From Candidatus Schekmanbacteria bacterium (GTDB lineage: Bacteria > CSSED10-310 > JACPHN01): DNA of 64,000 bases. The DNA is taken from contig JACPHN010000019.1 of NCBI GenBank assembly GCA_016188575.1, positions 62,001-126,000 on the forward strand, given 5' to 3'. Positions 19,582 through 31,341 of this stretch are shown piece by piece; positions within the stretch are counted from its first letter, which is position 1; the number at the start of each line of letters is the position of its first letter. Below the pieces are notes generated by a model, which saw only the letters and a program-made list of their open reading frames with translations, searched no databases and had not been told where the DNA came from. A program made the translations under genes and the position numbers.

Positions 19582-19886
19582 TGCTCACCGAAGCCTGCGG
19601 CGGGAAGAAGTGTCAAGGATGAAACCGGACATTCGGCCGACGCCCGAAAAAGGGGGGAGGGGGTGAACCGATACGGGCGGGGAGCTCGACGCTCGCGGTC
19701 GCGCCCGCCGGCCGTAGCCGCGAGTGGGGCAAGGGCGAAACGAAGCGGGGATGCGGGCGGCACGAAAAAGGCTCGAGCCTTGCGGGCTGGTTCGAGGACC
19801 TTTCATCTCCCGGCGAATGAGGGTACGGTAGGAGTCAACACGCGCACTCGAAAACCCCACTCGCGACACCCGGGAGCTGGAGAATA

Positions 19887-22142
19887 TTGACCGCCCCCGC
19901 CGCACAGAAGGCTGCCGCTGACCTGCGCGCGACGCCGCTTCGCCGCGGCGGTATCATCATCGTCACCTCGCGCGGCCCTGTACAGCTCGGCGTCCCCCCC
20001 GAGACGATCAAGGACACCCTGCCGCTGAGCCACGGCGTCCCCGACATCTTCGTGCTCGCGCAATCCTTCTTCAGCTACGAACGCGGCGTGTGCTTCGCCG
20101 AGCTCGAGTTCCCAACGTACTACAACTACTTCCTGCGCCAGCGAAAGACGCACGTCGTGGGCACACCCGCGCAGCTCGAGCGGGTCCGCCGCTTTCTTGG
20201 CGAAGCGCTGTTCGGCCCAGCCCACATCGATCTCACCGCGGAAGTCGAGGGCGTGGCGAACTGGGGCGTGCTTCCGGACCTGCCGCGGGAGATGGCGTAT
20301 TTTCGCCGGTGCCCATCTGCTCCCGAGCGCGCGATGGAGCTGAGTGACCTGCTGGCGCTGCACGCGCTCGAGGAGCCGCCCCTGGGCGGCCCCAGGCAAG
20401 CCGTCATCGACAGCCTGCGCTTCGAGCTGCAGGCGGATGGCGCGCTGCTCCTTGAAGATCTCGGCCAGGGCGGCGCGACAATCGCCGTCTCGCGCGAGCT
20501 TTCGCTGCCCGCCCGCAGCGCCGGCAGCCGGTCACCGTCCGCGCCGTTTACGCCGCCGCGATTCGCGGTCACGGTCCTCGGGGCCGGGCACGGCTTCGAC
20601 GTCCACGGCAAGACTACCGGCCTGCTGCTGTGGATCGACGGGCGGGGCATCCTCGTCGACCCCCCGGTGGACACGACCGAAGTCCTGCGCGATCAGGAAG
20701 TCCCGCTCCGCTGTATCGACTCCGTCATTCTCACCCACTGCCACGGCGATCACGATGCAGGGACTCTACAAAAAGCGCTGCAAGCGGACCGCGTGCGCCT
20801 GCTGACGACACACACCATCTACAACAGCTTCGTGCGCAAGTCCGCGCTGCTCACGCAGCTCCCGCGCGAGCGCTTCGACGCCATCGTCGAGCACGTGCCG
20901 GTGCCGGTCTACCGCCCGGTGCAAATCAACGGCGCCCGCTTCCGGTTCACGTACACGCTGCACTCGATTCCGACGATCGGGTTTTCCGTGGAGCTCGATG
21001 ACAAGCGGCTGCTGTACACGGCGGACACGCTCAACGATCCCGGCGCCATTCGCGCGCTGGCGGACGCGGGTGTGCTATCGCCCGGCCGCGCCGCGGATCT
21101 CCTGAGCTTCGACTGGTCGCACGACCTTGTCATCCATGAAGCCGGAGTGCCGCCGCTGCATACGCCGGTCGACGTTCTTGCCAGGCTCTCCGCCGAGACC
21201 AAGCAGCGGCTGTTGGTCGTTCACACCTCCCGTGCCCACATTCCTCCGGAATCGGGGCTGCGGGTGGCCGCAGTCGGGCTGCGGAACACCGTGGTGCTCT
21301 CCGCCGGCAACCCGGCAAGCGGCGGCACGGCGCGGCGGCTCATGGCGCTGGCGGCGGTGGATCATTTCCGCGCGCTGCCGGTGGCGAAGGCGCTCGAGTT
21401 CCTGGACGTCGTGCACGAGGTGTCCTTCAGCGCCGGCGAGGTCATTGTCCGGCACGGCGAGGAGGCCGGCCATTTTTACATGATCCTGTCGGGGAAGGCG
21501 GTGGTGACGGGGGGGGAGGTGCCGGAAAAGGTGCTCGTCGCCTACGACTATTTTGGGGAATCAGCGCTCTTGCTCGGCGGCCCGCGGACGGCGAACGTCA
21601 CGGCGGTTTCGGCCGTGCGGGCGCTGGCGCTGACGCGCGAGGATTTTCTCCGGCTGATCGCGGGAACACCGGTGCGGGAGCGCATGCTCAAGCTCTCTGC
21701 GAATCGCCAGCGGCAGACGTGGCAGCTTCTGGACGACCATCCGGTGCTGGCCACGCTCGGCGCCTACCAGCGCAACGAGCTGCAGTCGATGATGGAGGAG
21801 CTATCCGGCGACGCTGGCCGCGAGCTGGTGGAGGCGGGACAGGCGCCGGCGGCACTGCGCATCGTGGCCGCGGGCGAGGTCGAAGCGATCTGCCCACACG
21901 GAAAGTCGGGGCGCATGGGCCGCGGCCAGCTCGTGGGCTCGCTGCCAGAGGTCGTGCGTGGGAGCCTGGAACCTTATTCGGTGCACGCCGTAACGACGTC
22001 ACGGGTATTTGCGTTGCCGGCGGCGGAGCTCCGGCGCTTTTTCCTCACGTATCCGGGGGTGTATCTGCGGCTCCTGCACGAAGACCGAGGCCGGGTGCGC
22101 TTTTGCCCGTACTGCGTTGACGCCGCGGAGGCGCAGGTCTAG
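19887..22142 (+). CDS. MBL-fold hydrolase fused to cyclic-nucleotide-binding domains
   Basis: 751 residues from a TTG start (GGAG and GGGAG upstream). Order: an N-terminal ~230-residue region of unknown type; a metallo-beta-lactamase domain with the zinc motif 'HCHGDHDAG' at about residue 284 and later 'LLYTADTLNDPG' and 'VVHTSRAHIP'; a cNMP-binding domain from about residue 500 ('FSAGEVIVRHGEEAGHFYMI', phosphate cassette 'FGESALLLGGPRTANVTA'); and a second, more divergent cNMP-like domain to the end. The cassette retains the Glu and Arg that contact cyclic nucleotide. MBL-fold proteins include cyclic-nucleotide phosphodiesterases. A cyclase gene follows after 42 bases, so this could be a cyclic-nucleotide-controlled hydrolase or the degrading partner; which is unknown. 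Confidence 0.82.
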   Translation: MTAPAAQKAAADLRATPLRRGGIIIVTSRGPVQLGVPPETIKDTLPLSHGVPDIFVLAQSFFSYERGVCFAELEFPTYYNYFLRQRKTHVVGTPAQLERVRRFLGEALFGPAHIDLTAEVEGVANWGVLPDLPREMAYFRRCPSAPERAMELSDLLALHALEEPPLGGPRQAVIDSLRFELQADGALLLEDLGQGGATIAVSRELSLPARSAGSRSPSAPFTPPRFAVTVLGAGHGFDVHGKTTGLLLWIDGRGILVDPPVDTTEVLRDQEVPLRCIDSVILTHCHGDHDAGTLQKALQADRVRLLTTHTIYNSFVRKSALLTQLPRERFDAIVEHVPVPVYRPVQINGARFRFTYTLHSIPTIGFSVELDDKRLLYTADTLNDPGAIRALADAGVLSPGRAADLLSFDWSHDLVIHEAGVPPLHTPVDVLARLSAETKQRLLVVHTSRAHIPPESGLRVAAVGLRNTVVLSAGNPASGGTARRLMALAAVDHFRALPVAKALEFLDVVHEVSFSAGEVIVRHGEEAGHFYMILSGKAVVTGGEVPEKVLVAYDYFGESALLLGGPRTANVTAVSAVRALALTREDFLRLIAGTPVRERMLKLSANRQRQTWQLLDDHPVLATLGAYQRNELQSMMEELSGDAGRELVEAGQAPAALRIVAAGEVEAICPHGKSGRMGRGQLVGSLPEVVRGSLEPYSVHAVTTSRVFALPAAELRRFFLTYPGVYLRLLHEDRGRVRFCPYCVDAAEAQV

Positions 22143-22184
22143 ACTGGCATCGGCGTTTTCGCTCCGAGGCCTGGGCCAACACGC

Positions 22185-25100
22185 ATGTCCACGCTCGTAC
22201 CGCAGCTCATCGTCGACCGCGACCGGCAGGGTCAGCGCTCGGGGGTCGTGACGGGTGCGGCTGTCTTCGCCGACATCTCCGGGTTCACGATCCTCACCGA
22301 GCGCTTGATGGCGCACGGCAAGGAAGGAGCCGAGGAGCTGGCCCGGACGTTGCGGTTCTACTTCACCCCGCTGGTGGGGGCAGTGGAGGCCGCCGGGGGG
22401 ATGATTACCGGCTTTGCCGGCGACGCGTTCACGGCGGTGTTTCCCGGCGGCGAGACCGAAGGCGGCGCGGAAGCTGGGGCAGCGGTGCGGGCGGCGCTGG
22501 CGATGCAAGTCTTCTTTGCCGAGAACAGCACCTACACGACCCGGTACGGCGAGTTCGCCTTCTCGATGAAGGCGGGGGTGGCGTGGGGCGAAAGCCGCTG
22601 GCACATCGTGGACGCGACGCCGGACGCGGCATCGTTCTTCTTCGCGGGTCCGGCGATCGACGGCTGCGCGGCGGCCGAGCACCATTGCGAGCGCGGGCAG
22701 GTCGTGGTCGACGAGGGGATTCGCGCGCGCCTGGCGGGCGGCATCGCGTGGGAGCCGGTCGGAGAGAACGTGTTTCGGGTGCTGGAGGACCCCCCGTCTT
22801 TCCTCCCCCCGCAGGCGGGGCGAGGAAAGGCAGGGGATGGTGCCGCGCCAGAGCTGCAAGACAATGGATACAGCGCGACGCAGACGCGGATCGGTCTGAC
22901 TTCGGGGGAGACGCGCTTCTTGCCCGCCGACATCGCTTCGGTGCCGATCGAGGGGGAGTTCCGCATCGTCTCCAGCGTCTTCGCGGCGTTCACGACTCCC
23001 GGCGATCTGCCGGCGTTCATCGCGCAGGCGCACCGCGCGGCGCTAAAGCTCGGCGGCACGTTCACGCGAGCGGACTTCGGCGATAAGGGGGGCAACATCC
23101 TGGTGTTCTTCGGCGCGCCGACAACCCACGAAAACGACGCTTCGCGGGCGCTGGATTACGCGCTTGCATTGTGCGGAGAGCTGCCGGCCGGGGCGCAGCT
23201 TCGCGCAGGGGTCACCCACGACGTCCGTTACGTCGGCTTCAATGGCGGAGGCAACCGGCTCGAGCTCGCGTGTCTCGGCCGCGCGACGAATCTGGCGGCG
23301 CGCATGATGATGAAGGCGCCATGGGGCGAGGTGTGGTGCTGCCCGAAGGTGAGCGAGCAGGCCCAACGGACGCACGAGCTGCGGCCGGCCGGCGCCCACC
23401 CGTTCAAGGGGTTTGACGCGCCGCTGGAGGTGTTTCGCCTGGAACGGGCGCAGACGCGGCAGATCCGGGTGTTTCGGAGCGCTCGGTTCGTCGGCCGGGA
23501 GGCGGAGCTCGGGCAGCTCTCGGCCCACGTCGAGCCCGTGTTCGCGGGGCGCTTCGCCGGCCTGGTCTACGTCGACGGCGAGGCGGGAGCGGGCAAGAGC
23601 TTTCTCGTGGATAACTTCCGGCGTGCGCTGGCGGAGGGTCGCGGGGAGAAGGCGTTCACCTGGATCGACGCGCCGTGCGACGCGACGCTACGCGCCTCGC
23701 TGAACCCGTTCGCGTGGGCGCTGCGCGACCAACTGAAGATGGCGACGGGGAAAAGCGCGAGCGAACGCCGGGCGGCTTTCGACCGGCTGTTGGACGACCT
23801 GATCGTCCGCCTGGCGCTGAAGGGCAGGAAGATCCGGGCCGAGGTAGAGCGGCTGCGCTCGGTGCTCGGAGCGCTGCTTGACCTGCGCTGGGAGGGGTCG
23901 CTGTACGAGCAGCTCGACCCGCGCCTGCGGTACGAAAACACGCTGATTGCGGTGCGCGTCTGGCTGGAGGCGATGGCGTCGGTGAGACCGGTGATCGTGC
24001 ACCTGGAAGACGCCCACCTGGCGGATGAGGACACGGCGGAGGCAATCGCCCGGATCGTCAAGTCGGCACGCAACACCGGCGCGTCCCTCGCGCTGGTCTG
24101 CACGTGCAGGTTTGCGGCGGGCGGCGAGCGCTTTCGCTTCGCGATCGAGAGCGAGTGCGAGAGCGAGACGGAAGGAGGAGAGGACGCGGACCGCGGCGCC
24201 GGCGATGGAGAGGCTGAACGCGGGGCGGACGCGCCCGCGGTGGAGTTGCGTGGGCTGTCGGCGGAGGCGGTACGGGCACTGGCGGAGGCGCAGCTCGGGG
24301 AACCGGTCGCGCCGAGTCTCGCGGCGCTGGTGATGGAACGGGCCAACGGCAACCCGCTGTTTGCCGAGCAGATCGTGGTGTACCTGCGGGACCGCGAGCT
24401 GCTGAGCAAGACTGCCGAAGGGTGGGTGGCGACCGCGGGGGAGGACGCGGTGCCCGACGACGTGAGCACGCTGCTGGTAGCGCGGCTCGACCGCCTGCCG
24501 GCGGAGGTGAAACGGGTCGCCGAGTCGGCGGCGGTGCTGGGCCGCGAGTTCGGCGCCGAAGTGCTCGCCGCCATGGTCGGCTCGAGGGCTGAGGTCAGCG
24601 GCGCGCTCCATGTGGGAACGCTGGAGCGAGTGTGGTCGGAGACTTCGCCGGGCCGGTTTCTGTTTTCCCACGTGCTGCTGCGCGATGCGGCGTACGACAT
24701 GCAGGCGCGGGCGCGGCTGCGGCGGCTGCACGGGAGGGCCGGGCAGGCATTCGAGGAGGCCTACGCCGAGGACCTGGGCTCCGTGCTCGGCGAGCTGGCG
24801 CACCATTTCGAGAAAGCCGAGCAGCGGGACAAGGCGGTGCTGTACCTTGGACGAGCGGGTGATGCGGCGCGCGACGCGTACCGCAACGCGGATGCGCTGG
24901 GCTACTACGACAGACTGGCGGCGTGGCTGCCGCGTTCCGAGGCGGCGTGGAGCGACTGCGCCATGAAGCTCGGCGGCGTGCGCGAGCTCGTCGGGCGGTG
25001 GGCGGAGGCCGAGGCCGACTACCGGGCAGCGCTCACGGCGGCGCTGGAGGCCGGGGAGCGGCTTCGGGCGGCCCGGGCGGGCGCGGCGCTCGGAAACCTG

Positions 25101-26408
25101 CTCGGCGCGCGCGGGGACACCGAGCAGGGGCTGGAGGAGCTGGAACGGGCGCTCTTCGCGCTGCCCGAGGACGACGGGGACGTCGCGCCGAGGATTCAGG
25201 CACTGGATTACAAGGCGGCGCTGCTGTTCCGCTGCGGGCGCGTCGACGAGGCCGAGAGGATCTGGCGGGGGATCTTGCGCGACCGGCAGGCGGCGTTGAC
25301 GGCGCTGATCGCGGCCGACATCATCTCACACCTCGCGGTCGTGGAGCAAACCCGCGGCTCGTTCTGCGAAGCGAAAGCGCTGTACAGGACGGCGCTGGCA
25401 CGGCTGGAACGTGCGGACGACAAGCGGCGCACGGCCAATATCCTGGCAAACATGACGGGGATTCACTGGGCGCTGGGGGAGAAACGAGAGTCCGCGGAGC
25501 TGGGCGAACAGGTCAGCCGGCTCTACCGGGAGATCGGAGACCGCCAGCGGGAGTGCACGTTCGCGATCAACATGGGAGTGGCGCTGATCAATGCAGAGCG
25601 TCTCGAGGACGCAAACGGCCTTCTGGTCTCGGCGCTGGAGGCGGCGCAAGACATCGGCGATCGCCGGCTCGAGGCGAACGCACTCCTCCGCCTCGGCAAT
25701 CTCTCCTTTCTTGGCGGGGAGCTGGAGGAAGCCGACGCCTTCGCGGCACGATCGATCGCGGCGGCCGGTGCTCTTGGGGAGCGATCGCTCGCGGCGGAGG
25801 CAACCCGTCTTCGGGCGCAGGTGCGGCAAGAGACGCGCTGCTTCGACGAGGCGCGCAACCTGTTCGGGCAAGCCGTGCTGGCGCAGTCGCAGCTCGGCGA
25901 GAGAGACCAGGCAGCGGCGACCCTGCGGATGGCCGGGGCGATGGAGGTGGCGTGTGGAAATCTGGCGAGCGCTCTCTCCTTGCTCGATCGCTCGGTGTCG
26001 CTGCAGCGAGAGGTCGGATCGCCGCAGGACGAGGCGCGCACCTTGTACTACAGCGTCCGCGCCCGGCGGTGGCAGGGTCGAGATCCGCGCGATCTCGCAC
26101 CGGACATCGATGCCGCCGAGGCGCTGGCCCGCGATCTGGGAGAACGGGCCGACATCGCGTTGTGCCTTTGCGAGCGCGGCCACTTGCTGCTGATGGCCCG
26201 CCAGGACCCCGCTCACCTGTTGTCGGAAGCAAGCAGAGTCCTCGGTACAGTCGGTACACCAGTGGACCGGAGCGAGGTCGCGGCGGCTTGCCTGGCGCTC
26301 GCGGCAGCGGCCTCGGCCGTTGAAGAGGGCAGGGAGCTGGTCCGCGGCGAGGCAGCGGACCAGCTCCCGGAAGGACTGCGGATCTGGCTTGAGAACCGCG
26401 GCTCGTGA
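22185..26408 (+). CDS. Class III adenylyl/guanylyl cyclase with AAA ATPase and TPRs (ADCY10-like)
   Basis: 1407 residues, cytosolic. Cyclase domain 1 (about 24-200) has metal-binding Asp residues in 'VFADISGFT' (Asp30) and 'GFAGDAFTAVF' (Asp80). A second cyclase-homology domain spans about 265-400 ('TRADFGDKGGNILVFFGAP', 'GRATNLAARMMMKAP'). Next comes an AAA/STAND-type NTPase with Walker A 'GEAGAGKS' at about 465 and 'PVIVHLEDAHLADEDTA' as Walker B, then from about 860 TPR-like repeats to the C-terminus. The C1-C2-NTPase-TPR order is that of mammalian soluble adenylyl cyclase and bacterial relatives. An in-frame palindromic insert lies at residues about 205-215. Probably an operon with the MBL-cNMP gene. 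Nucleotide preference cannot be read. Confidence 0.87.
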   Translation: MSTLVPQLIVDRDRQGQRSGVVTGAAVFADISGFTILTERLMAHGKEGAEELARTLRFYFTPLVGAVEAAGGMITGFAGDAFTAVFPGGETEGGAEAGAAVRAALAMQVFFAENSTYTTRYGEFAFSMKAGVAWGESRWHIVDATPDAASFFFAGPAIDGCAAAEHHCERGQVVVDEGIRARLAGGIAWEPVGENVFRVLEDPPSFLPPQAGRGKAGDGAAPELQDNGYSATQTRIGLTSGETRFLPADIASVPIEGEFRIVSSVFAAFTTPGDLPAFIAQAHRAALKLGGTFTRADFGDKGGNILVFFGAPTTHENDASRALDYALALCGELPAGAQLRAGVTHDVRYVGFNGGGNRLELACLGRATNLAARMMMKAPWGEVWCCPKVSEQAQRTHELRPAGAHPFKGFDAPLEVFRLERAQTRQIRVFRSARFVGREAELGQLSAHVEPVFAGRFAGLVYVDGEAGAGKSFLVDNFRRALAEGRGEKAFTWIDAPCDATLRASLNPFAWALRDQLKMATGKSASERRAAFDRLLDDLIVRLALKGRKIRAEVERLRSVLGALLDLRWEGSLYEQLDPRLRYENTLIAVRVWLEAMASVRPVIVHLEDAHLADEDTAEAIARIVKSARNTGASLALVCTCRFAAGGERFRFAIESECESETEGGEDADRGAGDGEAERGADAPAVELRGLSAEAVRALAEAQLGEPVAPSLAALVMERANGNPLFAEQIVVYLRDRELLSKTAEGWVATAGEDAVPDDVSTLLVARLDRLPAEVKRVAESAAVLGREFGAEVLAAMVGSRAEVSGALHVGTLERVWSETSPGRFLFSHVLLRDAAYDMQARARLRRLHGRAGQAFEEAYAEDLGSVLGELAHHFEKAEQRDKAVLYLGRAGDAARDAYRNADALGYYDRLAAWLPRSEAAWSDCAMKLGGVRELVGRWAEAEADYRAALTAALEAGERLRAARAGAALGNLLGARGDTEQGLEELERALFALPEDDGDVAPRIQALDYKAALLFRCGRVDEAERIWRGILRDRQAALTALIAADIISHLAVVEQTRGSFCEAKALYRTALARLERADDKRRTANILANMTGIHWALGEKRESAELGEQVSRLYREIGDRQRECTFAINMGVALINAERLEDANGLLVSALEAAQDIGDRRLEANALLRLGNLSFLGGELEEADAFAARSIAAAGALGERSLAAEATRLRAQVRQETRCFDEARNLFGQAVLAQSQLGERDQAAATLRMAGAMEVACGNLASALSLLDRSVSLQREVGSPQDEARTLYYSVRARRWQGRDPRDLAPDIDAAEALARDLGERADIALCLCERGHLLLMARQDPAHLLSEASRVLGTVGTPVDRSEVAAACLALAAAASAVEEGRELVRGEAADQLPEGLRIWLENRGS
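22799..22828. repeat. In-frame palindromic insert, copy 1
   Basis: Arms of 14 bases (TTTCCTCCCCCCGC / GCGGGGCGAGGAAA, one mismatch) around an AG loop, inside the cyclase gene where it encodes 'FLPPQAGRGK'. The 24-base core recurs at 27382-27405 in an unrelated gene. Confidence 0.65.
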
Positions 26409-26456: not shown

Positions 26457-29400
26457 TCATCGCCGGCGCCGCCGCCCGGCTCGGGATGCAAGCACGCTCA
26501 GCCCGGCAAGAAGGCACGTCGTGGCCGCGACAGTTTCGGCCGGAACCGGCAGCGAGAACGGACCGAGCAATACCTTTTCGCTCGGGTTTCCCTCCAGGTC
26601 GACGGAGTAGACTTCCGCGTAGTAGGCGGTACCGGAGACCAGCTCGCTCAGCGCCATCTCATGGTGGGTGACGTCGGCTCCGGCCTGCACGTAGCGATCC
26701 AGGTTGGCCGGCGACTGCCCAAAACGCACCACCGTATCGGCGGCTTCGTCCGTGTCCCATACCAGGATGACGAAGGGCGACTCGACTCGTACGGTCGGGC
26801 TACCGACGAGGTGCGGCGCGGTGACATCCTTGGTCGCGGCGGTGGTCGTCTGTGCCGGGGTCGACGAGCCGACATTCCCGGTGGGATCCTGGGCGTCCAC
26901 GTGGTAGGTGACCACCCCGGCGGTGGGAAGGTCGCTGATGCGAATCGAATGATCGACCGCTGGCGAGTCTTCCTGTACGTGCTCCTCGTGGCCGTCCCCA
27001 GTCGAGAACACCACGGTCGACACGGCCGGTTCGGAGGTCGTCCACTCCAGGACGACGGCGGTGTTCGTCGTCGAGGCGACGACGAGATCGCGCACCTCGG
27101 GAGGCGTCGTGTCATCGGACGTTGGCAGGAAGGTGCTCACGGGCGGCGTGGCCTCGAGAAAGGCGCCGTCGAGCGTCCAGGAACGGAGACGAAATTCGTA
27201 CTGCTTGGCGGGATCGAGGTCGGGGATCTCCGCGACCTCCTCCTTTTCGGCGCGCGGCGAGCTGAAGACGACGATCCACTTGACAATCTGCCTGGCTCTG
27301 CCGTCGTCCTCCCGCTCGCGAGGGAAAGGTCGGAAAGAGGGGGCGTGCTCGGTGCGGTCATCCTTTCCGCCCCCCACCCGGCCTCCCCCCGCAAGCGGGG
27401 CGAGGAGCGCATGTGCGCCTTCCTGCAGGCTCGGAAGGAGCGACCTGCCGCCTTCCTCCACCTCCCGATATGCCAGCTCCGACTTCGCCAATCGATTCAG
27501 CGCCCAGCGGATCACCGCGGTGCCGTCCGCCGCGTACTCGATGGTGCCCTCGTTGGTGTACATGGCCGGCGGGATGCCGCCGGTCGGCCACGTGCGCGCC
27601 TCGATCTCCTCCGACTCCACGGGATCGCGCCCGAAAATGTCCCGACTGCGCACCACGATGCGGTAGCGAGTGTCGGGGGTCAGGCCGGTCACGTAGACGC
27701 GGTGGTCGCGCGTCAGCTCGGGGTCGTAGACGGAGTTGGCCGGCAGGTCGCGACGCGGCGCCGCTTCCACCTCGCCTGCGCGCGCGGTCACTGCCTCCCA
27801 GAGCACCTCGCTGTCCGCCGGCCAATCGGTGATCCAGTCGACGACGATGAGGTCAGTGGTACTGCGCTCGGCCCCCGCGAGCGGCCCTTCGAGGATGCGC
27901 AACGCCGCGCTCGGAGCGCTGGCGAGCGTGCGGCAGGCGTCGGACGCGCTGGTGCCGATCCTTCCCCACCGGTCGGTTACCGTCGCCGTGAATGTGTATT
28001 CGGTGTCGCTGGTGAGGCCCGGAACCAGCAGCCGGTGCAACGTCCGCAGCTCGGCCGAGGCGACGCTGCCCGCCGGCGAACCGGCGACGGCGTAGTCCAG
28101 CACGAGCGTCGTCGCCTCGTTGGTGTGGACCTCCACGAGCGCCGAGCCTTGCGTCACCGACCGCGAGTCGCAGACGATCGAGAGCAGGTCGGGCATCAGC
28201 GTGTCCGGTGCCGACTGGGTCATGAAGGTGTAGGTGTAGGTGGCGAAGGACTGGCCGTCGAGCGACGCACCGGAGACGGCAAACTGATAGGTCGTGTTCG
28301 GGTTCAGGCCGCCGAGCTCGAGCTGATGATGCGTCGTGTAGTCGCCCACGTAGGTGCTCGAGCTGTAATCCGCCGTTTCCCCGTACTCGACGGCGGCCGT
28401 TGTCGGCACATTGGTCTCCCAGAAGAGCGTGACAGCGCGGTCCGAGACCGCCGCCGGTGCGGGCGGCTCGACGAGCCGCGGCGCCGCCACGGCCCTGGCG
28501 AACGCCGCCGGCATGGCCACGGATTGCTCGACGGAGCAGACCTCGCCGCTGTCGGCGTAGTCGACCATGCACCCCTGCACGAGATAGGTCAGCCCGGCGG
28601 TCAGGCCGGTCGCCGTCAGGTTGGCATGCGTGCCGTAGCCCGCCGAGCTCACCTGCCCGGATGCAGCGCCACCGGAGTCGCGCCACTTCAGCGTGGCGAG
28701 GACCGGCTCCGACGCGTCGAAGCTCATCGCGATCTGGCCCGAGCGCGCATCCTCGACAAAGGGCCCGGAAACGAAAAACGGCTTCCCGGCGTCGGCGAGC
28801 CCTGCCATTGGCGTGGCCATGGCAAAGCCACCTGGAGAGGCGACGACCAGTGAGGGATTGGAGGTGACGAACGCACTGTAGTAGTACGTCGTGCCATTCA
28901 CGGCGCCGGTATCGGCCACGGAGTTGCTACCGATGGGACCGATCGACGCCCCATCGCCCGGCGTCACCGGAAAGCCGCTCGTTCCCCTGGTGATGTGCAC
29001 CACGTCCGCGACGCCGTATACCACACCCGACGGAACATCCAGCGTCGTCCAGGTGAGCACGACCCGGTTATCTCCGGGCACGGCCGCAAGCTGACCTACG
29101 CCCGGCATGGCGATGCCATGGCTGCCGATGCGCGTCACAAACGCGTCGGTTGGCGCGGTCAGCGTGTCATCATAGGCGGTGCTGCTGGTGACCGGGAAAT
29201 CGGCAGCGAAGGTCGTGCCTACCACGTAGCGCACGCCGTCATCGCCCGCGAAGATGGCGTTACCCGCGTCATCGGACCCGCCGCCGAGAAAGCTGAGGTC
29301 GTCGAGATACTCGCCGCCGCTGCGGACCCGCCCCACGAATGCGTCTACCATGCTGGCCGGGTCCGGCTGGAAGGCGTTTGCCACGGGCAATGCCGCGGAG

Positions 29401-31256
29401 TCCGTGGTGCCGGTGAAATAGACGTTTCCGGCAGCATCGAGGCTGAGACCGTTGATCTCATCGTAGCTGCTGCCGCCAAGTAGCGTCGAAAATGCCAGGC
29501 TCCTGCCGTCCGCCGAGAACTTGGTAAGAAATGCGTCCGGAGTCGCGGCGGGTGACTGCAATGGGTTCACCATGGGGAATGAAGAGCCCGAACCTGTCAG
29601 GCCGCCAATCCACGCCTCACCAGTCGGCGTCACCGCGATGTCGTTTCCCCAGTCGGTCGCGGAGCCACCCAGGTAGGTCGCATACTCGAGCACGTGGGTG
29701 CTCAGGTTGAATCTCGCGAAAACCGCGTCCGCGGAACCGGAGTCCAGTGGCTGGTACGCGTCGTCGCTGACCGGAAAGTCCGAGGAGTCGCTGAGCCCCG
29801 CGACATAGGCCTTGTCCTGCGCATCGACGGCGACTCCCCTGAGGCTATCCTCTCCGGTGCCGCCGAGATAGGTCGAGAAAGCCAGGCCGCTGCCGTCCGC
29901 AAGTAGCGCCGTGACGAATCCGTCCGTAAAGCCCAGAAGCCCGGGTTGGGTGGGAAATTGTTGCGGGAAGTCTGTCGAAAAGGTGTAGCCGACGACGACG
30001 GCGAGGCCGGTGCTCGTCACGGCGACCGCCGCGGGCGTATCCGGGGACTCGGACGAATCGCCGCCGAGATATGTCGAATAGAGGATGTCCGAGCCGTCAC
30101 CGAGCAGCTTCACGACGAAGATGTCGCTCGGCGCTGCGTTGGTCGACTGATAGGCGTTGCGAGTGGGAAAATCGAAGCTATCTGTGATCCCGACGAGGAC
30201 AATATCGCCCGTGGAGGGATCGAGCGCGATGTCGGTCGCGTCGTCGACCTCGGAGCCGCCGAAATACGCGGCGAAAAGAAGCTGGCTCCCTGGCGCCGCG
30301 TTCGGATCGAGCTTGACGATGGCGGCGTCGGTGATTCCAGCGTTGGCGCCGAACGGGGCACCGAGCGAGTTGAGCACGGGGAATTCCGCATCGGAAAAGG
30401 TGGTGCAGGCGATGTAGACATGGCCGTCGCTGTCGGTGACCACGCTCTGACCGCGGTCGTCCGAGTTTCCGCCGATGAAGGTCGAATAATCGATCAGCGG
30501 GTCGATGACGAGCATTCGGGTAACGTCATAGGCATCGACTTGAAAGCGCACGAGGCCGTCGCCTACAAGCACGTACGAGGAGGTCACCGGCGCCCTGCCG
30601 CCCGTCGGCCCGTCGATCTGATATGCCCGCGGCGCGCGCTGGATGATGTCGCGGCCGAGCACGGTCACGTGCAGGTCGCCGCGTTCATCGATGGCCAGCT
30701 TCTCGGCGCCGGAGAATGCGAAAAGCGGCGTCGTCGGGTCGGCTCCCGGCGCGAGCACCACGTCGAGCTCGAGCACGCCGGCCGCGTCGTAGAAAATCAC
30801 GTCAGTTCCAGCATAGAGCTCGGGATAGGCGACGGCTCGAAACGTGGGGATGCCACGGAGCCAGCGCCGGGGATCACCGCCGCGGTAGTACGAGACCTCG
30901 CCCCGCAAAGGGTCCACCCCCTGCGGCGCGCTCATCGGGCTGGCGTCGCGAAACTCCAGGCGCACAGTCGCACTCCTCCCGGAGCGCGGATCCCGCACCG
31001 TAAGGAGCGACCCGGCAGCGCCAAACGACACCTGGTAGTCGCGGCCGCGCCCGAGAAACACCGCCTCGGCTGCTGCCTGGCCGACATTGGCCTCAAAGCC
31101 CGTGGCCACAGAAAGGGCGCCGGCGGTGGCCGCCTGCCCGGGCGGGGGCACGACGGCCCACGCGGTGGCGGCGATGAGAAGCGAGGTGAGCACGACCGAA
31201 CCGACGAGGATTCCCCGAGACCGGGATCCGCTGACAGCGAGGTTGACGACCAACAC
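26457..31256 (-). CDS. Giant SBBP beta-propeller / fibronectin III surface protein with CTERM-like tail
   Basis: 1599 residues. The GTG at 31256 follows GGGGGA by 5 bases and gives a signal peptide ('ILVGSVVLTSLLIAATAWA'); the frame is open to 31331 but lacks a better start. Residues about 40-300 form an N-terminal beta-rich domain; about 250-800 hold SBBP repeats ('ILYSTYLGG', 'LAFSTYLGGTGEDSLRGVAV', 'LEYATYLGGSATDWGNDIAV'); about 800-1560 hold fibronectin type III-like modules ('DTRYRIVVRSRDIFGRD', 'AVVLEWTTSEPAVSTVVFS'). The C-terminus 'SLPVPAETVAATTCLLAGLS' then Arg-rich 'RAGRRRRR' has the layout of exosortase-sorted proteins. An in-frame palindrome insert lies near residue 1285. Function is probably adhesion or surface structure, which is inference. 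Confidence 0.85.
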   Translation of the reverse strand: MLVVNLAVSGSRSRGILVGSVVLTSLLIAATAWAVVPPPGQAATAGALSVATGFEANVGQAAAEAVFLGRGRDYQVSFGAAGSLLTVRDPRSGRSATVRLEFRDASPMSAPQGVDPLRGEVSYYRGGDPRRWLRGIPTFRAVAYPELYAGTDVIFYDAAGVLELDVVLAPGADPTTPLFAFSGAEKLAIDERGDLHVTVLGRDIIQRAPRAYQIDGPTGGRAPVTSSYVLVGDGLVRFQVDAYDVTRMLVIDPLIDYSTFIGGNSDDRGQSVVTDSDGHVYIACTTFSDAEFPVLNSLGAPFGANAGITDAAIVKLDPNAAPGSQLLFAAYFGGSEVDDATDIALDPSTGDIVLVGITDSFDFPTRNAYQSTNAAPSDIFVVKLLGDGSDILYSTYLGGDSSESPDTPAAVAVTSTGLAVVVGYTFSTDFPQQFPTQPGLLGFTDGFVTALLADGSGLAFSTYLGGTGEDSLRGVAVDAQDKAYVAGLSDSSDFPVSDDAYQPLDSGSADAVFARFNLSTHVLEYATYLGGSATDWGNDIAVTPTGEAWIGGLTGSGSSFPMVNPLQSPAATPDAFLTKFSADGRSLAFSTLLGGSSYDEINGLSLDAAGNVYFTGTTDSAALPVANAFQPDPASMVDAFVGRVRSGGEYLDDLSFLGGGSDDAGNAIFAGDDGVRYVVGTTFAADFPVTSSTAYDDTLTAPTDAFVTRIGSHGIAMPGVGQLAAVPGDNRVVLTWTTLDVPSGVVYGVADVVHITRGTSGFPVTPGDGASIGPIGSNSVADTGAVNGTTYYYSAFVTSNPSLVVASPGGFAMATPMAGLADAGKPFFVSGPFVEDARSGQIAMSFDASEPVLATLKWRDSGGAASGQVSSAGYGTHANLTATGLTAGLTYLVQGCMVDYADSGEVCSVEQSVAMPAAFARAVAAPRLVEPPAPAAVSDRAVTLFWETNVPTTAAVEYGETADYSSSTYVGDYTTHHQLELGGLNPNTTYQFAVSGASLDGQSFATYTYTFMTQSAPDTLMPDLLSIVCDSRSVTQGSALVEVHTNEATTLVLDYAVAGSPAGSVASAELRTLHRLLVPGLTSDTEYTFTATVTDRWGRIGTSASDACRTLASAPSAALRILEGPLAGAERSTTDLIVVDWITDWPADSEVLWEAVTARAGEVEAAPRRDLPANSVYDPELTRDHRVYVTGLTPDTRYRIVVRSRDIFGRDPVESEEIEARTWPTGGIPPAMYTNEGTIEYAADGTAVIRWALNRLAKSELAYREVEEGGRSLLPSLQEGAHALLAPLAGGGRVGGGKDDRTEHAPSFRPFPREREDDGRARQIVKWIVVFSSPRAEKEEVAEIPDLDPAKQYEFRLRSWTLDGAFLEATPPVSTFLPTSDDTTPPEVRDLVVASTTNTAVVLEWTTSEPAVSTVVFSTGDGHEEHVQEDSPAVDHSIRISDLPTAGVVTYHVDAQDPTGNVGSSTPAQTTTAATKDVTAPHLVGSPTVRVESPFVILVWDTDEAADTVVRFGQSPANLDRYVQAGADVTHHEMALSELVSGTAYYAEVYSVDLEGNPSEKVLLGPFSLPVPAETVAATTCLLAGLSVLASRAGRRRRR
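27382..27405. repeat. In-frame palindromic insert, copy 2
   Basis: CCTCCCCCCGC-AA-GCGGGGCGAGG, identical to the core of the copy at 22799-22828 apart from one loop base, including the same arm mismatch. It sits inside an FN3-type module of the surface protein, where the local peptide ('LLAPLAGGGRVGGGK') is unlike its surroundings. Confidence 0.65.
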
Positions 31257-31312
31257 TGGATTCCCCCAGAGGAACGTGAGTTTCCTTGACACGCGCGGAC
31301 AGGTCGGGATTG

Positions 31313-31341
31313 AGCGTAACGAGCCTTGCACGCCCCGTCAA
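31313..31341 (-). promoter_or_regulatory. Sigma-70-like promoter of the SBBP/FN3 gene
   Basis: On the minus strand, TTGACG (31341-31336), 17-base spacer, TACGCT (31318-31313). It ends 57 bases upstream of the GTG at 31256, in the 197-base gap after the JAMM peptidase gene. Confidence 0.45.

Follow-up and report, generated by a model that had tools for sequence, protein, structure and literature searches.

Two neighbouring genes on the forward strand of the window (by which the whole stretch of 64,000 nucleotides analyzed is meant throughout) encode a protein combining metallo-beta-lactamase-fold (MBL) and cyclic nucleotide (cNMP)-binding domains, and a large sAC-like cyclase. Both open reading frames, first described in an earlier note made from the sequence alone, are present where that note had placed them, on the same strand and 42 bases apart, and comprise the following features:

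19887..22142 (+), gene of the MBL-cNMP protein, 751 aa, TTG start
19923..20501 (+), N-domain (residues 13-205), a probable degenerate, metal-free MBL-like half, from fold and profile score
20559..21305 (+), MBL catalytic domain (residues 225-473), Apyc1/YhfI-like, with a complete dizinc site, from sequence and fold matches
20736..20753 (+), HxHxDH motif H284-C-H286-G-D288-H289, from sequence and an alignment of 20 relatives
21318..21665 (+), cNMP-binding domain A (CNB-A; residues 478-593), intact, from Pfam (1e-26) and fold
21552..21599 (+), phosphate-binding cassette FGESALLLGGPRTANV (residues 556-571), from sequence
21720..22091 (+), cNMP-binding domain B (CNB-B; residues about 612-735), degenerate, from fold and sequence
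22143..22184 (+), intergenic gap, 42 bases
22185..26408 (+), gene of the sAC-like cyclase-NTPase-TPR protein, 1407 aa, ATG start
22185..22790 (+), cyclase homology domain C1 (residues about 1-202), with metal Asp30, Asp80 and Lys129
22950..23459 (+), cyclase homology domain C2 (residues about 256-425), with Lys301, Asn369 and Arg373, and Ala362 in place of the Thr405 of sAC
23484..24074 (+), NTPase of AAA_16/STAND type with an intact Walker A motif (GEAGAGKS, residue 465)
25230..26198 (+), TPR region (residues about 1016-1338), from domain searches

The TTG start at 19887 is preceded, at a distance of 4 bases, by GGAG (19879-19882). At 22117-22145, a weak match to the sigma-70 type of consensus overlaps the 3' end of the MBL-cNMP gene and does not count as evidence of a promoter. 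The two genes are probably co-transcribed in this genome, and their products may share one cNMP pool. Convergent with the cyclase gene lies a reverse-strand gene (26457-31331) for a secreted-type protein of 1624 aa carrying DUF7948, SBBP propeller and fn3-like repeats.

Anatomy of the MBL-cNMP Protein

The alignment of 20 relatives, together with an AlphaFold2 model (mean pLDDT 88.8, pTM 0.89), divides the MBL-cNMP protein into four parts, i.e., the N-domain, MBL, CNB-A and CNB-B, and its Pfam matches are cNMP_binding (E 1e-26, two stretches), Lactamase_B_2 (E 3e-10) and Lactamase_B (E 2e-8). As full-length relatives sharing 33-38% identity are found in several phyla (MAGs labelled Planctomycetota, Deltaproteobacteria and Bacillota), the fusion is neither a chance event nor an assembly artefact. 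The first Foldseek list for the protein consisted of PKA/PKG regulatory domains only, the MBL rows having come with the VIA re-alignment.

The MBL and one cNMP domain, as previously listed, are indeed there, and a second, degenerate cNMP domain had been overlooked. CNB-A resembles the PKA RI-alpha domain 3pna (Z 19.8, rmsd 1.8), and the claim of an intact phosphate-binding cassette holds at the level of residues, as the canonical Gly557, Glu558, Ala560 and Arg567 are all in place. CNB-B has no FGE and no cassette Arg, the Gly/Glu/Ala/Arg of CNB-A having been lost.

The MBL Catalytic Domain and Its Relatives

An MBL site devoid of metal ligands, which the earlier note had named as an outcome speaking against its proposal, is not what is found, since all seven ligands (H284, H286, D288, H289, H359, D380 and H446) are present. 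H284, H286, H359 and H425 are invariant across the alignment (20/20 relatives), while D288, H289, D380 and H446 are kept in at least 90% of the 20 relatives. The HEAG, H425 and the final His of the domain are what we take to be RNase Z-type motifs.

When the PDB was searched with the MBL domain sequence, the best match was phage Apyc1 (7t28, E 8e-6), followed by YhfI (E 3e-4) and then by BA1088 and bacterial Apyc1. Comparison of folds also put Apyc1 at the top (7u2r, Z 24.6, rmsd 2.4 over 221 residues; Z 24.6/24.4/23.0 for the Apyc1 structures), followed by PqqB, PhnP, RNase Z, YhfI and yeast PDE1 at Z 19-21, where the scores of YhfI, ZiPD and PqqB lie within a few Z units of one another. The MBL-cNMP protein scores 18.9 bits (E 0.001) against the curated Pfam Apyc1 profile (PF23023), short of its cut-off of 50 bits, and is thus a relative of Apyc1, not an Apyc1 per se; the NCBIfam/TIGR RNase_Z cut-offs (252-293) were missed as well, at 28-30 bits.

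Class II cyclic-nucleotide phosphodiesterases, to which Apyc1, YhfI and PDE1 belong, form homodimers with an HxHxDH dizinc site in the case of these three (PMC9117128). The predicted resemblance to them favours a cNMP phosphodiesterase and is not proof of the substrate; Apyc1, RNase Z, PhnP and PqqB have a common fold and different substrates. Apyc1 and YhfI, the nearest MBLs both in sequence (E 8e-6 to 4e-4) and in fold (Z 20-25), share the dizinc site and the chain length of the window domain (its ~248 residues being Apyc1-sized and shorter than an RNase Z chain), but are single-domain homodimers without any CNB, whereas the window MBL is accompanied by a putative dead tandem copy and two CNBs.

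Two cNMP domains downstream of an MBL also make up Dictyostelium GbpA and GbpB, in which occupancy of the two downstream cNMP domains activates the MBL-type class IIb catalytic domain, GbpA preferring cGMP and GbpB cAMP (PMC11988041). Because the window protein has this same architecture, its MBL is, by analogy, most likely a cNMP-switched phosphodiesterase, for which cNMP-regulated hydrolysis would be the expected mechanism; this is also the best reading of the MBL role for which the earlier note had offered a phosphodiesterase or another hydrolase switched by cNMP, with GbpA/GbpB as its eukaryotic counterpart (PMC11988041). Compared by published architecture, the window protein differs from GbpA/GbpB in being bacterial, in the decay of one of its two CNBs (the second) and in its probable degenerate MBL-like half at the N-terminus, which would be an addition to the GbpA/GbpB layout.

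The N-Terminal Domain

The N-terminal ~230 residues had been set aside as a further unassigned domain. That a domain is there is borne out (AF2 pLDDT mostly 87-96), and it is now probably assignable as a decayed, metal-free MBL half of the kind seen in long-form RNase Z. Pfam returned nothing credible for it, and the best PDB sequence match, a deoxyribose-phosphate aldolase at E 0.52, was rejected as not credible either. The predicted strand/helix order of the N-domain, as we read it, is that with which the MBL fold begins, and residues 9-473 of the model align to human ELAC2 over ~373 residues (Z 19.4), compared with ~224 for a short RNase Z. The N-domain profile scored 27.2 against that of the same family's MBL domain, at a matching position (N 137-159 on MBL 106-128), whereas 100 column-shuffled MBL profiles gave a mean of 13.3 (sd 2.2, maximum 19.6), the CNB domains 12-13 and the reversed MBL 19.7; the hhalign probability for this match is just 12%, over 23 columns. 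The assignment draws on one whole-chain AF2 model and a weak profile match, and the ELAC2 and profile evidence taken together is good, but not final. In ELAC2, the N-terminal MBL domain is inactive and has no zinc ligands (PMC11144196), so that both proteins may follow one design, in which a dead half stands in for the dimer partner of an active C-terminal MBL; unlike the window protein, ELAC2 has no CNB domains, its MBL is longer, and its substrate is probably a different one.

The same tandem of a dead and a live MBL, along with the presumed RNase Z-like HEAG...H425 and final-His motifs, would also suit an MBL hydrolase that is gated by cNMP through its CNB but acts on something other than a cyclic nucleotide (RNA ends, some other phosphodiester or an AMPylated target), its MBL pair working in the manner of long-form RNase Z, and some family members do adjoin signalling genes other than cyclases. 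We nevertheless hold this to be unlikely, if worth keeping in mind, given that the MBL is Apyc1-sized and shorter than an RNase Z chain, that cNMP phosphodiesterases rank first by sequence as well as by fold, and that GbpA/GbpB provide a precedent.

The sAC-Like Cyclase

That the second gene encodes a class III cyclase with NTPase and TPR domains, ADCY10-like in character, is supported. Pfam recognizes AAA_16 (E 6e-16) and TPR_12 (E 2e-16) in the 1407-aa protein and gives Guanylate_cyc at just E 0.15, and its identity as a cyclase rests on the phmmer match to human ADCY10 (E 2e-11, 22% identity) and on the predicted fold, the C1-C2 core (pLDDT 84.5) matching human sAC at Z 40 over 378 residues (rmsd 2.6). 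The C1-C2 tandem, the catalytic Asp/Asp/Lys/Asn/Arg set, the NTPase and the TPR-rich C-terminus are all features held in common with ADCY10.

Asp30, Asp80, Lys129, Lys301, Asn369 and Arg373 correspond to Asp47, Asp99, Lys144, Lys334, Asn412 and Arg416 of sAC, where Asn412 is presumably catalytic and Asn369 its counterpart here. The catalytic roles of most of these sAC residues are listed in PMC12867704, and the bicarbonate switch of sAC is formed by Lys95 and Arg176 (PMC12250328), both of which are absent from the window protein (Lys95 to Gly76, Arg176 to Ala162). As the catalytic residues are kept and those of the bicarbonate site replaced, the cyclase is likely to be active and probably not bicarbonate-switched in the way sAC is, i.e., it would have the sAC architecture without that regulatory site. 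Another departure from ADCY10 is at the Thr405 position, which is Ala362 here and the same in the cyclase's two nearest relatives, making the base preference uncertain.

The window genome also contains a very large number of open reading frames of about 1200 aa that resemble the NTPase/TPR part of the cyclase; with 167 matches in all, the C-terminal part of the cyclase belongs to a big expanded family of regulators.

Distribution and Gene Neighbourhoods

In a broad sample of 386 genomes, 22 have MBL-cNMP family members (E <= 1e-40, with a small number of the matches partial or of variant architecture), and so do 28 of the 40 genomes from one other phylum (E <= 1e-100); a phylum-wide search around genome G036 comprised three genomes only, and plasmid records yielded no relative at E <= 1e-20. 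The long open frames around some relatives (888-1118 aa) were considered as fused cyclases and discarded, since the extensions look like reading-frame shadows and not like domains.

The two genes had been proposed to constitute a self-contained module, and the neighbourhood search suggested for checking it was run on 55 other MBL-cNMP loci, taking in some 1.5-8 kb of flanking sequence as far as each contig reached. No sAC-like cyclase was found nearby at any of these (0/55), and a class III cyclase was adjacent at one (1/55), it being of the conventional type and directly upstream (genome G416, L134:2-1483 and L135:1739-3532, where the end of the cyclase gene about coincides with the start of the MBL-cNMP gene). 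With chance adjacency estimated at ~0.5% per locus (~10 cyclases per ~4000 genes), ~0.3 such cases would be expected in 55 loci, which makes the single one unremarkable. Conversely, the MBL-cNMP gene is missing from four neighbourhoods of relatives of the sAC-like cyclase, and G001 and G002, genomes of the same phylum as the window genome, encode sAC-like cyclases but lack an MBL-cNMP protein. A conserved two-gene module dedicated to the synthesis, sensing and degradation of a cNMP, which the shared strand, the 42-base gap and the one upstream cyclase of the other genome would suit, is therefore improbable on these counts: at the level of gene neighbourhoods, the pair does not co-occur at any of the other loci read, an outcome that the earlier note had itself named as speaking against its proposal. 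The module is at most a local arrangement in this genome, the nearest genomes compared being of the same phylum (seven relatives, none of them from the same family).

The data are consistent with a looser dependence of the MBL-cNMP family on cNMP made elsewhere in the genome. A PF00211 class III cyclase is present in 22/22 of the genomes with an MBL-cNMP protein versus 253/386 overall (Fisher p 1e-4, uncorrected for kinship/phylogeny and genome size), and in 18/18 such genomes in a separate check, 15 of these being common to the 386-genome sample. These PF00211 counts omit the cyclase of the window, as Guanylate_cyc alone gives it the E of 0.15 mentioned above.

A cyclase adjoining a CNB-containing protein is also reminiscent of Pycsar, where the cyclase would make cNMP on infection and the CNB-MBL protein would be the effector, and weak, domain-level PADLOC matches (CNB to PycTIR, E 2e-12; C1 to PycC, E 5e-8) point the same way. 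These matches, however, reflect generic domains in common; the cyclase architecture is a different one, there is no TIR or membrane effector, and in the window the pair is flanked by genes of pntAB type and that of a large surface-type protein instead of lying in a defence island. Add to this that almost all relatives have no cyclase beside them and that the family is present in 28/40 genomes of one phylum, unlike the patchy defence genes, and a defence pair becomes very hard to believe in.

Several other arrangements were observed along the way. The window genome encodes a second MBL-cNMP protein (G000:C9, L056:7972-10305), in which HxHxDH has become THAHEEQ, breaking the metal site, and the CNB cassette is kept, suggesting a probable pseudo-enzyme sensor. 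In one bacterial family, the N-domain with MBL (about 489 aa) and a CNB protein of 165-167 aa are separate genes of one cluster (L090:6775-10052, L091:6201-9460 and L092:8248-11532), the gene between them reading like MEMO1. At L054:9969-11186 and L081:7258-8499, the gene of a GAF protein with what we read as an HD-GYP-like stretch runs into the beginning of the MBL-cNMP gene, a hint of crosstalk with cyclic di-GMP. Near the MBL-cNMP gene of two unrelated lineages (L011:4720-6816 and L055:12233-14524) are what read as GspE/PilB-like ATPases carrying response-regulator or GAF domains.

Discussion

As a prediction, a cNMP-regulated MBL phosphodiesterase next to an sAC-like cyclase has good support in the anatomy of the two proteins. 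Taken jointly, the interpretation that the MBL-cNMP protein is a cNMP-regulated class II phosphodiesterase, that the 1407-aa protein is a cyclase of sAC architecture and that their pairing is local seems to us rather probable; the analysis shows the anatomy, predicted fold, intact residues and distribution, and what we infer is the substrate, direction of allostery, co-transcription and feedback role. The dead N-terminal MBL-like half would replace the dimer partner, with the second MBL holding the dizinc site; cNMP binding to CNB-A would switch the phosphodiesterase on, CNB-B being structural, and the enzyme would act in the cell as a feedback brake on the cNMP pool. Control of the tandem C1/C2 class III cyclase would lie with its STAND-type NTPase and its TPR region and probably not with bicarbonate as in sAC, and elsewhere the phosphodiesterase would work with cyclases encoded at other loci.

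The MBL-cNMP enzyme family is widespread, and its pairing with an sAC-like cyclase is not conserved at the 55 other loci. To our knowledge, little has been learnt about regulated cNMP phosphodiesterases of bacteria; a literature search for the MBL-cNMP combination did not find this architecture described, which says little, as the subscription literature lay mostly outside the search. A broader proposition, which we advance tentatively and would not rate as quite an even bet, is that these proteins represent a widespread bacterial class of allosteric cNMP phosphodiesterases (an inactive MBL half, an active MBL and two CNBs), older than or parallel to GbpA/GbpB, which in lineages with an abundance of class III cyclases serve as a main brake on cNMP by feedback and are coupled here to an sAC-like cyclase. 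A cross-phylum bacterial family of GbpA/GbpB architecture would provide a testable origin for GbpA/GbpB, the tandem of a dead and a live MBL suggests a route by which a homodimeric phosphodiesterase may have become one allosteric chain, and the family would name the likely cAMP/cGMP off-switch in lineages with many cyclases.
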